Shown here: piece after piece, positions 2,956 through 13,645 of the stretch
How the letters are laid out: each line of letters starts with the position of its first letter
Numbering within the stretch: the stretch's first letter is position 1
IMG/VR virus record: IMGVR_UViG_3300042876_000313
Location: 1-64,000 of that record
Origin: a virus
Reading direction: 5' to 3' (one strand)
Length of the DNA: 64,000 nucleotides
Translations under genes and position numbers: made by a program
The notes under the pieces: generated by a model
What the model was told of the DNA's origin: nothing
Database searches by the model: none
What the model saw: only the letters and a program-made list of their open reading frames with translations

Positions 2956-2994
2956 GGGATCAACGTCGCACTGGTTCTGCGATTCGTCAACCGG

Positions 2995-3059
2995 AAAATT
3001 AAAAGGGCGGCTGGTGTGCTTTCAGAGGTGTGAACAGTGACCGCACGAACCAACCGCCC
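2995..3059 (-). terminator. Intrinsic terminator closing the array and small-RNA transcripts
   Basis: On the minus strand GGGCGGTTGGT (3059-3049) pairs with ACCAGCCGCCC (3015-3005), 11 bp with one G-U, a loop of 33 nt, then TTTTAATTTT (3004-2995). The loop is long, but the stem and U-tract are convincing. Confidence 0.7.
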
Positions 3060-3081
3060 CGCCAGCTTTCGCCGGCTAACT
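2995..3081 (-). ncRNA. Candidate ~85-nt small RNA beside the array
   Basis: Downstream of a good promoter (3116-3088), the minus strand folds as GCCGGC-GAAA-GCTGGC (3076-3061; a GNRA-capped hairpin with one G-U pair), followed directly by an 11-bp terminator stem and TTTTAATTTT. There is no reading frame of note. The unit would begin near 3081 and end near 2995. It lies at the distal end of the quasi-repeat array, so the same bases would also form the 3' end of a read-through array transcript. Existence of a separate RNA is inferred. Confidence 0.45.
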
Positions 3082-3087
3082 CGCAAG

Positions 3088-3116
3088 ACCATACCCCCCT
3101 TAAATCGGACTGTCAA
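3088..3116 (-). promoter_or_regulatory. Sigma70-type promoter for the candidate small RNA
   Basis: On the minus strand TTGACA (3116-3111) is a perfect -35, followed by exactly 17 bp and TATGGT (3093-3088) as a 4/6 -10 box. It points into the GAAA-tetraloop hairpin and terminator. Confidence 0.5.
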
Positions 3117-4071
3117 CTGCGCGTCACATTGCCGTTCCATGCCATTACCCGACGGGGCAATACATTACGGCACCCCGCCATTACCGCACGGGACCCTACC
3201 ACGCCCACACATTGCTTGACTTCACAGTGCTTTACTTCGCCGTTTCCGCGCCACTCCCGACCCCGCCTTGCCCTAACGGCGCTTGACCCGACGGCTCGCG
3301 GCGTCACCGACACCGTGCGCGACCACGCGCAACAATGCCTTGCCTTTGCTGTGCTTCACTCTGCTTTACCCAGACCCGACTTTACCACGCATCACCGGGC
3401 GTAACATAACCCCCGCGTCACTAGACCGCGCTTTGCCGATACCGCACGTCTCCCTACCCTACCCTACCTTACCCCGGCGCCACACTGCATAGCCACTGCC
3501 GCACTCTGCATTGCCTAACCGTTGCTCAACTACACCCTGCGACACCTCACCCAACCAGGACAGCACTCGACCATTCCACCGCTAGACGTGACGTTACATG
3601 TCGGTGCCAAAACCAAACAAGACCGAGCCAGTCGCAACCGCGCCATCGCAAGACCTCACCTTACCAACGCTCTGCTTGACCTTACTACCGCCCAACCAAT
3701 CTATGCCCCTCCGAAACCACGTTTTACCATTGTGCGCTACACCACTGCGTTACTTTGCTATACTATACTCCACCGACTCAGAACCACGCACAGCCTACGC
3801 TTGACGAGACGACACCATTCGCTGCCATGCCACTGCGCTGCCCCACCTGACGCCGCCACGCACAACCACAGCGACTCGCTACCGTACCGTTACTGCACAT
3901 AACTAGACTCTACCGATACCATACGAGGCGTCACCGTACCGCCGCAGTTCTGTTCATTGCCGTCGCATGACGACACCTCGCCTCACAACGCCATTACCCG
4001 ACCGCATAACGCCATACCAGCACTATACTTCACAAGTCCTTGCCCAAACATTGCCTTGCCCGTCCACGCCT
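3117..4071 (-). repeat. Pentanucleotide-phased quasi-repeat array (G-rich on the minus strand)
   Basis: Read on the minus strand from 4071 to about 3117, the sequence breaks into mostly 5-nt words that begin with G followed by T, C or G, with variable remaining bases. Examples are GTAAA GCAGA GTGAA GCACA (3369-3350) and AAGGTAGGGTAGGGTAGGGA (3470-3451). Occasional 6-nt words break the phase. No unit is copied exactly, so it is not a tandem or CRISPR repeat. It starts within a base of the RAMP-like gene's stop codon and ends before a promoter and terminator. The minus frames carry many stops; the long plus-strand frames exist only because that strand is G-poor. Probably transcribed as a long 3' extension of the upstream mRNA (inferred). 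Confidence 0.7.
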
Positions 4072-4791
4072 TCACTCGTCCATGCGCTCGTAGGTGAAGC
4101 GCCCGTAAGATGCGTTGCGCCACTGGCCGAATCCCGACATCTGACCATATCCAAGCCATTCCTCGATCAACGCCTCGGCGTCCACCGCATCATCGCCCTT
4201 GCCAATCTTCTTGGACAGGCAGGTGATCGTGAACTCAAACGTCGCGCCGGCCAGCACCACTTCCGAACGCACCACCGTAACCCGTGGCCCCATCGCCGTC
4301 TCGGCCCGCAGCGAACGCTCACACAGCAGGACGCCGCTTTCCGAGCGGATGATCTTAGGCGGCAATTCCATGTCCGCCGCAATCGGCAACTGGATGACCG
4401 GAATGAAGCGCGGAAACACGAAGATGATCTGGTCAATCTTCGATTTGTACGCCGTGATGGACTTGCTCAGGGTGTCATCCGAAATCCGCAGCGCACCGCA
4501 GGCCGACTTGAAGAATCCCCGGATCATGTAATCTTCCAGGCAGACGAATTTCTCGTTGGGATCGCCGTCTTTCGGAATACTGGTGACGCCCCGCGCCAGC
4601 AGGTCGCTGCGCTTGAGCCGGGTAAAGCCGGTCGTGCCCGCTTCCTCCTTGTGTTCGGCGGTTTCCAATTCCTCCTTGCGCTTGTCGTCATCGGGGGCTT
4701 TGGACGCCACGAAGGACGCAAAGACTTCTTTGTTTTGGGGTTTCGTGCCGAGCATTGCTTCGGTCAACGTGAGTTTATACTTTAGCTTCAT
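4072..4791 (-). CDS. RAMP/Cas7-like phage protein preceding the array
   Basis: 239 residues from ATG 4791 (M-K-L-K-Y-K-L-T-L-T, a beta-strand start); a longer frame to 4908 overlaps the upstream small gene and is less likely. No Shine-Dalgarno is obvious. The C-terminus has G-F-G-Q-W-R-N-A-S-Y-G-R-F (residues 220-232) after G-Y-G-Q-M, which resembles the glycine-rich loop of Cas5/Cas6/Cas7 RAMP proteins. Mid-protein F-V-F-P-R-F-I-P-V and G-F-F-K-S-A-C-G are typical of a conserved phage family of unknown function that I recall. The quasi-repeat array starts right after its stop. RNA binding or filament formation is inference. Confidence 0.6.
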   Translation of the reverse strand: MKLKYKLTLTEAMLGTKPQNKEVFASFVASKAPDDDKRKEELETAEHKEEAGTTGFTRLKRSDLLARGVTSIPKDGDPNEKFVCLEDYMIRGFFKSACGALRISDDTLSKSITAYKSKIDQIIFVFPRFIPVIQLPIAADMELPPKIIRSESGVLLCERSLRAETAMGPRVTVVRSEVVLAGATFEFTITCLSKKIGKGDDAVDAEALIEEWLGYGQMSGFGQWRNASYGRFTYERMDE

Positions 4792-5541: not shown

Positions 5542-5892
5542 ATGAGAACCAAAACTGCGGTCGTCCGTCGTACCGAGCTTGAGAAAGCGTTTGCCCGTGA
5601 AGCTGGTATATCCGCCGAGAACGGCAAGCGTTTGCTCGCCACATTTTTCCGGCTCTTGTCCGGTTGCCTGCTCGACCGGAAAACCGTTTGCATGGGGCGC
5701 GTTGGCCGGCTGAATGTTTATCAGAAAGCCGCCCGCATCGGGCGCAATCCACGCCACCCGGATGATGAAGTGATTATTCCTGCTCATTGGGAGGTTCGCT
5801 TTGTTCTGCGCGGCCCGCTACGGGCGGAACTGCGGCGTATTCCGGTTGATGTGGATAGACCTTCCCCGGCCCGCCCAGATACAGAGCCGTAG
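5542..5892 (+). CDS. HU/IHF-like DNA-bending protein
   Basis: 116 residues. It shows the HU pattern: an N-terminal helical pair with A-G-I-S and L-L-A-T-F-F, then G-R-V-G-R-L-N-V-Y, A-R-I-G-R-N-P-R and I-I-P-A-H-W-E-V-R-F (residues ~50-90). A ~25-residue Pro/Arg tail follows, overlapping the 3' end of the integrase gene on the other strand by 119 bp. HU/IHF proteins assist tyrosine recombinases, so its position beside the integrase suggests an accessory role in integration or excision (inferred). Confidence 0.7.
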   Translation: MRTKTAVVRRTELEKAFAREAGISAENGKRLLATFFRLLSGCLLDRKTVCMGRVGRLNVYQKAARIGRNPRHPDDEVIIPAHWEVRFVLRGPLRAELRRIPVDVDRPSPARPDTEP

Positions 5893-7111
5893 TCTCTGCG
5901 TCCAAGTGGGTCAACAACTGCCTGATGTGATCCGTAGAAAGCCCGGCGGCCCGGCACTCAAATGCGTAGGTCACGCGCAGGCCGTGAAAGCAGCACTTGC
6001 GACTGTCCAACCCCGACCGCTTCACATAATCCCGAAACCGCGCCGAGCATAGCGTTCGGCTCTCGGTGTATCGCCGTTGTAATTCGCGCCAGACCCAACG
6101 CTCATGGTTGCGCTGGCCAATGATCTGCGGCATCAGTTCCTTGATCTGCGGCGGCATCGGGACGCATAGGCGCCGATCTTTTTTGTGGGTATAGACCAGC
6201 AAGTTCTTCCCGCCATCGTTAAACTCATTCGGAAGGATGGAATCCCATTCCAAGTTGATGCAGTCGTACATCCGCAGGCCGGCGTATCGAGCCAGGTACA
6301 TAGAACACTTGAACGCGAAATCAATCCGCCACAGGTCACGGTGCCGGTCCAATTCACTGACGGCCACCAGCCCAGCCTTGTCCCCGGTAACTTGAATCAT
6401 CGCCATTTTCTTTTCTTTCCGCGCCATGATCCGCTCAATGTAGCCCATGCACCGCTTAAATTCATCATCCGTCCACGGCTGCCTGTACCTCGGCTCCTTG
6501 GCTGAGATGGGCAGGGCGCGGGAATTGACCCGGCGCAAAATGCGGGCGATGTTGCCCATGACGTAGCCCTTGACGGCGCACCAGTCCAAGAACCGCCGAA
6601 TGACAACGTGATTCTGTTTCCGGTAGCTCATCCGGTGATCCTTATCCATGCCGTTGATCGCCTCGATTATGTGCTTTTCCTCGATGGAGCTTACCGGCAA
6701 CGTCAACAGATTGAATCGCCGGGCGAACAGTGAAACCTTGTAGATGTACGGCTCAATCGTGGTAGGTTGAAGTCCCTCGTTGCGGTCGAGGTGATCCCGC
6801 CAGGCTGCGATGCAGTCTGCGAAAGTCGGCTGGCGATCCATTATTTCTTGCAATCCCGTCTTGGTGATGGAGTCCGTGATTAAATCCGTGATGCGCCGTT
6901 TGATGTCCGCCGATTGCATAACCAACTCGATGTCGGCCTTGGCGTGCGTGTTCATCATTATCCATTGCACCCCCCGGCTGGTCAGCATCCGCAGTCGCCA
7001 ACCAGTTGCCTTGAAATAGACGAACGTGCGCCCGTCCAGTTCAAACGTCGGTCGCTCGAAAGATTTAGCTTCCGGCGCGTCAACTGGCTCAATGGTGGTT
7101 TCCTCGCTCAT
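5774..7111 (-). CDS. int: Tyrosine recombinase (phage integrase)
   Basis: 445 residues. An SAM-like core-binding domain lies near residues 95-200, and the catalytic domain carries Arg280 (A-R-Y-A-G-L-R-M-Y-D), Lys310/311 (Y-T-H-K-K-D-R), His376-x-x-Arg379 (F-H-G-L-R-V), His402 (L-L-T-H-L-D) and Tyr411 (T-A-L-Y-L). All catalytic positions are present. The ATG at 7111 overlaps the upstream gene's TGA (ATGA), indicating coupled translation. The N-terminal ~95 residues are an extension that may bind arm-type sites. An attachment site was not identified. Confidence 0.9.
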   Translation of the reverse strand: MSEETTIEPVDAPEAKSFERPTFELDGRTFVYFKATGWRLRMLTSRGVQWIMMNTHAKADIELVMQSADIKRRITDLITDSITKTGLQEIMDRQPTFADCIAAWRDHLDRNEGLQPTTIEPYIYKVSLFARRFNLLTLPVSSIEEKHIIEAINGMDKDHRMSYRKQNHVVIRRFLDWCAVKGYVMGNIARILRRVNSRALPISAKEPRYRQPWTDDEFKRCMGYIERIMARKEKKMAMIQVTGDKAGLVAVSELDRHRDLWRIDFAFKCSMYLARYAGLRMYDCINLEWDSILPNEFNDGGKNLLVYTHKKDRRLCVPMPPQIKELMPQIIGQRNHERWVWRELQRRYTESRTLCSARFRDYVKRSGLDSRKCCFHGLRVTYAFECRAAGLSTDHIRQLLTHLDAETTALYLGGPGKVYPHQPEYAAVPPVAGRAEQSEPPNEQE

Positions 7112-10689: not shown

Positions 10690-10705
10690 ATTCTTAGTCG
10701 TTTGG

Positions 10706-10736
10706 TTTTCGTGTTGTGCAACTGCGTTTTTGGTTT
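10706..10736 (-). repeat. 31-bp intergenic leader repeat, copy B
   Basis: Identical to 9348-9378, between the methylase-like gene and the 134-aa gene. Confidence 0.6.
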
Positions 10737-10749
10737 AACCGTCAGATTA

Positions 10750-11382
10750 TTACGCGTTCAGCAGCACTAAGGCCGCGCCGATCCCCGTCCCGCTTTCCTT
10801 GAAGCTGCCCGCCGGGAGACTGACCCACATCGCCGCCCCCGCGAACGCTTCCCGCCGCCGTCGTTCATCCATGCACACCGCCGCCAGCCGTCCACCAGGC
10901 CGGACAAACCGCAAGGCGTGTTGGATGTGGCGAATGTCGGCCCGCAAATGAAACGGCGGATTCATTATCACGGCGTCAAATTGCCCCAGGTCATCCGGAG
11001 TAAGGCTCAGGAAATCGCGCTGCTTGATCGTCACCCCGTCCCGGTTCTGCCGGTACAGTTCCGCCGCGCACTCTGGCGCCTGCTCGACTGCTACGACCTC
11101 GCCCGGCGAGAATGGCAAGACCGCATCCAGCAACCGGCCAAGGCCCGCCGATGGCTCAAGCACCCTGGCCCCCGGCTTCAAGTCTAGGAGCGCGGCCAAC
11201 TGGGCAGCGACCGCAACCGGCGTTTGGAAAAGCTGATAGACGGACACCGCACGCGGGGCTGTCCCGTTTTCGTGTCGTCCCGCCATACGATCAAAGCGCG
11301 GGCGCATTTCCTGCATGGCGAATCCGGCGGCGTCGTTCTCCATGCGGAGACTGTGTAAGCGGTTGAATGTTTCGGCGTTCAT
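10750..11382 (-). CDS. SAM-dependent methyltransferase, N6-adenine type
   Basis: 210 residues; ATG 11382 overlaps the upstream TGA (ATGA). Motif I is V-L-E-P-S-A-G-L-G-R-L-L, and motif IV is N-P-P-F in D-A-V-I-M-N-P-P-F, the signature of amino-methyltransferases acting on adenine N6 or similar. No target-recognition domain is evident, so specificity is unclear. Short phage enzymes of this type often sit with DUF3560 proteins, as here. Confidence 0.75.
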   Translation of the reverse strand: MNAETFNRLHSLRMENDAAGFAMQEMRPRFDRMAGRHENGTAPRAVSVYQLFQTPVAVAAQLAALLDLKPGARVLEPSAGLGRLLDAVLPFSPGEVVAVEQAPECAAELYRQNRDGVTIKQRDFLSLTPDDLGQFDAVIMNPPFHLRADIRHIQHALRFVRPGGRLAAVCMDERRRREAFAGAAMWVSLPAGSFKESGTGIGAALVLLNA

Positions 11383-11613: not shown

Positions 11614-13287
11614 CTAAGCAAGCTCCCGAACTTCGCTTTGAGCGTAACTGTCCAAGACCGATTGCCCGGCGCTTTCTTTCCAATATTTTTCCGTGGCGTC
11701 CTCGGTGGGCTTGACGTAGGGCTGCCACACCGCCGCCGGCAACGGGTTTTGCGGCTTGTCCGTCAACACAATAACCCGGTCGGCCCGGTTGGTGGTTGAG
11801 CCATCGCCCCAGGTGATCCGCACCTTGCACACCGCCGGCCCAATCCGCTTGGCGCGTTCCGAAGCGTGCCGCGTCCAAAGGTTGCTTTCCCGGTTGCTCA
11901 ATTCGCCGTTGGCGCAAAGCTCCCGCGTTTCCGCCTTGGCAAAGCTGCCTTTGCTGTTGGCCGAATAGACCGCTTGCGGCACCCGGCAGACGGTTGACGG
12001 CTTGAACTGGTCGGAATGGCATTTCCGCGCCTCCGGGCTGGTGTACTCGTTCCGCGCTTCCCATTCCACCCGCGCTCGCTCATTCCAGAGGGCTTGCAGC
12101 CGCTCGGCGTCGGCGTCGGTGGGGTTAATGAGTGGGCACGGCGCTTTTTCCGGCTTGCTGGCCTGGCGCTCGGCCTCCATCGCCTCCAGTTCTGCCAAGT
12201 TCTCAGGCGTCGGCCCGGTGTAGGCGGATTCCGGCAGGCGTTCAGTCTCGATCTGGAACAGTGACCACGACCGCCCCGCCTCTTGTTTGGTGCGATAAGC
12301 CCAACCGGAAACCGGCGGCGCTTTAACAAACACCGAGACAACCCGCCCGGTGGCCGGCGATTTGCACACCTTCACAATAAGCTTTCCGCCGATCCGCCCG
12401 CCCTTCTCAATTTCCACAAAGGCCGCCCGCCCGCCCTGCGCCTTAAGCATTTGGTTTTCATAGGCCAGCCGCAAAGTAAGGTGTTGTGTCCAATCGTCCT
12501 CGGCTGCCGGCTCAGAATGACGGGCCAACCACAGCGCCGCCGCCTGCGCCCCGGTGATCCTGTCCGGGTTATCGTTCCGCAGGTGATCCCACAGCGACGC
12601 CTCTTTGCCGGTAACAGGGTGCGCGTAATCGCTCGAACCGTAACCCATTCCGGCGTAACGCTCGGCAATCATCGTTTGCTTGTCCGGGTCGGTCATGGCC
12701 GCGATCTTCTGCCATGTCTGCCACGTTTTCAGCCGCTCGGCAATGTCCGCCCGGCATTTCCTCAATTCCGCCTCAAGCGTTTTGATCCGCCCCATGCGGA
12801 CACCCGGCGACGACTTATAAAGCGCGTGCGCGATTACTCCCGCCGTCCTGCGCTGCCAGTATTCGGCCTTACTCCAAGCATCCACCGCCCGCCCCGCAAT
12901 GCGATCATGCCGCGCCGCTGCCCGGTCGGCCCTGGCCTGGCTCTGGTAGCCGTGAACCGCTGGCCCGGCGTCGTAACTGTCCGCCTGCCCTGTCGCCTCA
13001 TCCGTCCGTTTGTCGCGGTATTCCCCGAAACGCTCCGCCCGATCCGCCGCCCGTTCCTCTGGCCCCATGTCCTCATCCTCGATAATATCAGCATAAGACA
13101 GCGCCGTGTCACGCCGGGAAGGCGTCCAAGTTGCGGCGAAGTCGCCCCCGCCGGCCTCCCGCTGCTTGTGCAACGCTTTCCAGCCGTCCGCCCGCAGCCG
13201 CTCATACTCGGCACGAGGCACCCGGCCCACATAGAGCCTCAGTTTATTATCTTCCGGGCTATATGTTGCCCTGTTTTCTTCACTCAT
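11614..13287 (-). CDS. DUF3560-domain protein, 557 aa
   Basis: The central R-A-A-D-R-A-E-R-F-G-E-Y and Y-W-Q-R-R-T-A-G-V-I-A-H-A, followed by R-I-K-T-L-E-A-E, is the hallmark of DUF3560, found in phage and plasmid proteins next to methylases. The N-terminal L-R-L-Y-V-G-R-V-P resembles the small strand module that precedes the domain in relatives. The C-terminal ~150 residues look like a separate beta region. Function unknown; a DNA-modification or anti-restriction link has been suggested by neighbourhood only. Confidence 0.7.
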   Translation of the reverse strand: MSEENRATYSPEDNKLRLYVGRVPRAEYERLRADGWKALHKQREAGGGDFAATWTPSRRDTALSYADIIEDEDMGPEERAADRAERFGEYRDKRTDEATGQADSYDAGPAVHGYQSQARADRAAARHDRIAGRAVDAWSKAEYWQRRTAGVIAHALYKSSPGVRMGRIKTLEAELRKCRADIAERLKTWQTWQKIAAMTDPDKQTMIAERYAGMGYGSSDYAHPVTGKEASLWDHLRNDNPDRITGAQAAALWLARHSEPAAEDDWTQHLTLRLAYENQMLKAQGGRAAFVEIEKGGRIGGKLIVKVCKSPATGRVVSVFVKAPPVSGWAYRTKQEAGRSWSLFQIETERLPESAYTGPTPENLAELEAMEAERQASKPEKAPCPLINPTDADAERLQALWNERARVEWEARNEYTSPEARKCHSDQFKPSTVCRVPQAVYSANSKGSFAKAETRELCANGELSNRESNLWTRHASERAKRIGPAVCKVRITWGDGSTTNRADRVIVLTDKPQNPLPAAVWQPYVKPTEDATEKYWKESAGQSVLDSYAQSEVRELA

Positions 13288-13357
13288 AATTTGATCCTTT
13301 CACTTGGGCTTGATTGCCCCCGTGAGCGGCAGCACGCGGCCCCGCTCAAGGGAGAAG

Positions 13358-13645
13358 TCAGGCGGGCGCTTGGCCGGTCGCTTTGGCGATGGCGGCCCGA
13401 ATTTCGGAATGGAGAAGGACATTGCCGGAACCGTTCCGGGCCATTAACGCCGCAACCTTTTCCAGCGCCGCCAGCAGATCAGGCGCCGCCGCGATTAATT
13501 GGGCATTGGCTTGATTCTCCGCCCGCCCGCACCAGTCGCAATCCGCCACCATGCCCGAACTCCCTTGCACCGTTACCCGGCGCTCCGGTTGCTCTGGAAA
13601 AGCGACAACCCGCCAAGGCCCGCTTGTGTAATTGGTTTTGCTCAT
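13358..13645 (-). CDS. NARLIAAAP-family phage protein, 95 aa
   Basis: ATG 13645. G-P-W-R-V-V-A-F then N-A-Q-L-I-A-A-A-P-D-L-L-A-A-L is the archetype of this phage family. C-D-W-C adds a CxxC. Unknown function. Confidence 0.7.
   Translation of the reverse strand: MSKTNYTSGPWRVVAFPEQPERRVTVQGSSGMVADCDWCGRAENQANAQLIAAAPDLLAALEKVAALMARNGSGNVLLHSEIRAAIAKATGQAPA

Follow-up and report, generated by a model that had tools for sequence, protein, structure and literature searches.

In the stretch analysed here, 64,000 nt corresponding to positions 1 to 64,000 of the IMG/VR virus record IMGVR_UViG_3300042876_000313 (hereafter the window), a gene for a lone RAMP protein is joined to a long array of short phased units. 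By analogy with published systems, the locus is very probably a phage interference module of the VIPR (Viral Interference Programmable Repeat) type, in which an array-guided RAMP filament would act on the DNA of rivals. A 2026 preprint describes VIPR as a phage-encoded lone RAMP (Vipr) of ~200 aa with an RRM core and a glycine-rich loop, accompanied by vrRNAs that consist of GGY/NN pentanucleotide repeats (PMC13142463). According to the same source, the NN bases of the vrRNA pair with double-stranded DNA non-contiguously, following a 1-nt skip rule, and the targets are competing phages, satellites and prophages (PMC13142463). The two parts of the window locus are the following.

4072–4791, minus strand: vipr-like gene (open reading frame) for a predicted Cas7-type RAMP of 239 aa with the C-terminal glycine loop GFGQWRNASYGRF
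3111–4071, minus strand: vrRNA-like array of ~190 G-Y-N-N-N units, including 35 six-nt gGYNNN units, with a period of 5.18 nt and equivalents at 107 of 113 homologous loci

The gene starts with the ATG at 4791, and its homologues begin at an equivalent ATG. Direct family searches with the protein in Pfam, PHROGs and NCBIfam gave no significant match. An AlphaFold2 model based on 35 sequences (pLDDT 85.7, pTM 0.80) retrieved Cas7-type RAMPs when searched with Foldseek and VIA-align; the match to type VII Cas7 has an E value of 3e-6, and Csm3 was matched with Z ~12 and a root-mean-square deviation of ~4.0–4.8 over 161–174 residues. In a profile search, type VII Cas7 (E 2e-4) and Csm4 (E 0.002) were found, both via the C-terminal glycine loop. 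The original prediction had proposed a RAMP/Cas7-like protein from the nucleotide sequence alone, and the structural model bears this out: as modelled, the protein is a lone Cas7-type RAMP with a glycine-rich loop. It shares the fold and the type of glycine loop with type III Csm3 and type VII Cas7, but it is only 8–22% identical to them and is encoded by a lone gene, with no cas genes seen next to it and without a repeat-spacer array. Whereas class 1 CRISPR effectors have a guide unit of 6 nt, the unit of the window system is ~5 nt.

Directly at the stop codon of this gene begins a phased tract of 961 nt, which is G-rich on the gene strand (41% G), as had been noted. Its autocorrelation has peaks at lags 5, 10, 15/16, 21, 26, 31 and 36 with z scores of ~6–9 relative to Markov shuffles, and its Fourier spectrum is dominated by a single line at 5.18 nt (power 24.9), accompanied by a half-period harmonic near 2.6. 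Since the highest power at any period in 200 dinucleotide shuffles was 5.3, the expected periodic excess is confirmed. Phase tracking revealed a drift of at most ~1.2 nt across the entire tract; thus, the array is coherent, and its true period is 5.18 nt and not 5 nt. The ~5-nt phasing originally proposed therefore holds with regard to the array and its periodicity, but not with regard to the exact period. A hidden Markov model (HMM) parsed the tract into 156 five-nt and 35 six-nt units. No periodicity of comparable strength occurs elsewhere in the 64 kb. Tandem Repeats Finder (TRF) returned short imperfect fragments only, which is consistent with the predicted absence of exact copies. RNA folding of the array gave nothing beyond shuffled controls, and Rfam returned nothing for the window or the surroundings of the locus, nor was a hammerhead found in ten relatives.

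A CRISPR-Cas assignment was rejected, in agreement with the original prediction, because TRF found nothing but these fragments and no other cas gene was identified among the scanned neighbours. The window array resembles CRISPR arrays in its proposed RNA-guide function and in having semi-conserved punctuation with variable stretches between, but it differs in that identical repeats and discrete spacers are missing and the punctuation is a degenerate unit of just 6 nt.

Proteins with 35–38% identity to the window RAMP are encoded in four human-gut phage records, and a search with a five-sequence profile yielded 90 IMG/VR loci and a further 27 from bacterial contigs, most of these belonging to metagenome-assembled genomes of clostridia. 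Conservation was counted over 113 gene-bearing loci, namely the window plus 112 more, considering arrays with a period of 5.05–5.27 that lie at most 300 nt from the gene. The array adjoins the gene in 107 of them (59 downstream, 37 upstream and 11 on both sides), against a background of 6 detections in 12,420 windows. Upstream and downstream alike, it is G on the gene strand that carries the main periodicity (117 of 122 arrays), and arrays of at least 400 nt have a mean period of 5.157 (standard deviation 0.024). Accordingly, the arrays suspected in the flanks of homologues do exist, and gene and array together are a conserved phage element. Its gene has a frequency of 4 in one 300-genome sample of a host family.

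Two arrays are found in L063, a 250-kb phage contig, at 10701–11276 and 12026–13376, with a gap of ~750 nt between them; the second is the longest seen (1351 nt, period 5.14, power 33.6). Strong periodic signals also lie away from the RAMP gene in L069 (7551–7976, period 5.00, power 22.5) and L009 (6276–6776, period 4.92, power 17.3), and these may be coding repeats.

The internal grammar of the arrays was derived with an HMM for which 60 of 103 selected arrays served as the training set; the model distinguishes 5-nt units of the form G-Y(or A)-R-N-N from 6-nt units that bear an extra G (94%). A 6-nt unit recurs every 4–8 units, mostly 5–7 apart and far from a geometric spacing, so that the array is a chain of ~31-nt blocks. 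The period is non-integer because these discrete punctuation units are interspersed. When all loci, most of them clostridial, are taken together, the 6-nt unit has the semi-conserved form GCAANG; of this unit, only G-Y and the extra G stand out in the window array. These data bear on the idea that the array acts as double-stranded DNA, for example as a centromere-, origin- or packaging-like site on which a polymerising RAMP or another protein is spaced by half-helical turns (2 x 5.18 = 10.36 bp). A period near half a turn of B-DNA that stays phase-locked over ~960 bp would suit such a site, yet we consider it very improbable: the 6-nt units account for the non-integer spacing, the characterised relatives have a period of 5.00–5.04 that does not fit the helix, and at almost every locus the array keeps the same orientation with respect to the gene, whichever side it occupies. 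Moreover, RAMPs bind RNA, and the published VIPR repeats are RNA guides.

When related arrays were compared, the encoded proteins being mostly 92–99% identical, the substitutions per site amounted to 0.05 for G, 0.04 for the extra G, 0.11 for Y and 0.15–0.18 for N. The Gs are thus conserved while the N positions vary fast, and segments are shuffled among arrays whose proteins are nearly identical. A functionless, degenerate tandem repeat that has grown by slippage beside the gene might explain the low complexity and the lack of exact copies, but such an origin is extremely improbable in view of the coherent phase and the occurrence beside so many divergent homologues; the Gs, whose substitution rate is a third of that of the N positions, already contradict it. 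One could also imagine that the array regulates the vipr transcript in cis, as a decoy or an autoregulatory leader or trailer, instead of supplying guides. Its position on the same strand, abutting the gene, and the lack of targets in our searches (see below) would be in keeping with that role, which we nevertheless regard as quite unlikely, as arrays flank both sides of the gene at some loci and as N positions that change quickly, together with segments exchanged among arrays of near-identical proteins, suit guides better than a fixed regulator.

Within the pooled arrays of all loci, the Y-position bases of adjacent units are anti-correlated (z ~40; 17 when stratified by array and block position), that is, neighbouring units avoid the identical base.

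The characterisation of VIPR has centred on two clades whose guides are discrete, and the SUSP1 and P. fulva systems have been published (PMC13142463). With the aid of the locus description in the preprint, we identified the SUSP1 Vipr as ALH47069 and found its vrRNAs in KT454805. The SUSP1 vrRNAs are visible as GGTNN tracts with a period of 5.00–5.04. Both systems have a single phage RAMP with a glycine loop, flanked upstream and/or downstream by G-Y-N pentanucleotide repeats in which G and Y are conserved and N is hypervariable. Carriage by phages or proviruses is shared as well, the window being an IMG/VR record with 90 relatives in viral contigs and 27 in bacterial ones. The architecture, however, differs. 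In SUSP1, exact 5-nt GGYNN units form discrete tracts of ~75 nt, and tails and a vap gene are present, whereas the tract of the window lineage is continuous (961 nt in the window itself), with a mean period of 5.16, the first G relaxed to N, a 6-nt GG unit per 4–8 units in ~31-nt blocks, and no recurrent accessory gene. The vrRNAs of type II, to which SUSP1 belongs, comprise 9–16 exact 5-nt repeats and a structured 3' tail (PMC13142463). An assignment of the window locus to this type was rejected on account of its continuous ~190-unit tract with 35 six-nt units, the period of 5.18 and the lack of visible internal tails. As the preprint distinguishes seven types and mentions staggered arrays with overlapping vrRNAs (PMC13142463), the lineage may be among those types or represent the staggered, overlapping form.

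The agreement with published VIPR also supports the RNA-guide-like model of the original prediction. Following the SUSP1 and P. fulva systems, from which transcription, processing into guides, protein–RNA binding, non-contiguous DNA pairing and repression of rivals are carried over, the array next to the gene would be transcribed and its RNA bound by a filament of many 239-aa RAMP (Vipr) subunits, each covering about one 5-nt unit. In every unit the protein would hold the conserved G-Y, leaving the variable bases free to pair with the double-stranded DNA of a rival phage or prophage, and the most likely outcome would be repression of transcription of the rival DNA.

The N positions show a further regularity that may reflect how this lineage reads its targets. 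Across the GY spacer, the identity of N4 is coupled to that of N2 and N3 in the following 5-nt unit (z ~11 and 9). As position-in-block composition is a possible source of artefact, we stratified by array and block position, whereupon the coupling was weaker yet present (z 5.7 and 6.9); it is not present after 6-nt units. The N4-N2 pattern resembles that of genomic neighbours at distance 1 (r ~0.70), and the N4-N3 pattern that at distance 2 (r ~0.70). A codon-phase analysis of guide triplets did not discriminate a reading frame. We take the coupling as a lead, not as proof of a skip rule, that N4-N2-N3 is derived from, or selected against, contiguous target triplets xNN. It is conceivable, though on balance doubtful, that this VIPR lineage has its own guide grammar, with a continuous tract whose units retain, as N4, the base that is skipped in the target; GY would then split the target triplets N4-N2-N3. 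At intervals of ~31 nt, a 6-nt GG unit would mark off short guides, which might overlap, each corresponding to one turn of a filament with about six subunits per turn. In that case, contiguous DNA triplets could be the source of the guides or the sequences against which they are read.

Several results weigh against the VIPR interpretation. The kinship in sequence is still weak: aligned with hhalign, the window family (35-sequence profile) and the SUSP1 Vipr (5-sequence profile) are colinear end to end with an E value of 3.5e-4, but at a probability of 37%. We saw no division of the tract into separate ~100-nt guides that end in a common 3' tail. Near the RAMP gene of the relatives we found no conserved accessory gene, the commonest neighbours being a repressor, a single-stranded DNA-binding protein and other early phage genes; the vap gene is described as "typically" present in VIPR, hence not always (PMC13142463). 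Target searches were likewise negative. Scans of the local loci under 0–3 nt skip rules with several base choices did not rise above decoys, the high scores coming from low-complexity or codon-repeat matches; BLAST of GY-removed arrays against phages and 300 related genomes gave chance-level matches, and three exact skip-pattern scans of IMG/VR gave 0 matches. Finally, there is no matching distance-2 signal from N3 to N2 of the next unit; the coupling between these two positions is weaker than a fully contiguous source with 3 nt per unit predicts. One match is suggestive but anecdotal: around unit 86 of the GY-removed array of L036, seven units, bounded on both sides by 6-nt units, correspond to an exact 21-nt sequence (AAGGAGGGCAAACATGACAAC) at ~5600 in L054, the ribosome-site/start region of a related phage. 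Since no natural target was found, the targeting code assumed for this lineage is that of its published relatives. Taking all this into account, we still hold the assignment of the window locus to VIPR to be highly probable.

Beyond the array, on the same strand, the transcript may end at the following feature, recognised directly in the sequence and by script.

~2995–3060, minus strand: putative transcript end with a 12-bp stem and a 33-nt loop, then the U-run TTTTAATTTT; not conserved in relatives

The region 2985–3130 folds mildly better than shuffles (z -2.0), and a terminator is plausible here. The notion that a good terminator closes the unit is thus plausible for the stem and U-run of the window, but does not extend to a conserved part of the element, as such structures follow 15 of 64 downstream arrays when these are read forward and 19 of 64 in the reverse control. 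Just past it, on the same strand, lies an HNH/homing endonuclease-like gene (2283–2885, phrog_559, E 1e-14). It is possibly an accessory nuclease; no equivalent recurs beside the RAMP gene in relatives. Near the locus, a tyrosine integrase gene (5774–7111, minus strand) overlaps a gene for an HU/IHF-type DNA-binding protein (5542–5892, plus strand), which points to a temperate virus.

Overall, the lineage occurs in more than 100 phage and prophage loci, and its array grammar differs from that of characterised VIPR by a 5.16-nt phase, 6-nt punctuation and coupling across the spacer. Because this grammar is quantitatively sharp, the cutting, reading and acquisition of long arrays become directly testable questions. 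Simple spectral analysis of the raw DNA is enough to detect such arrays, with no recourse to protein homology.
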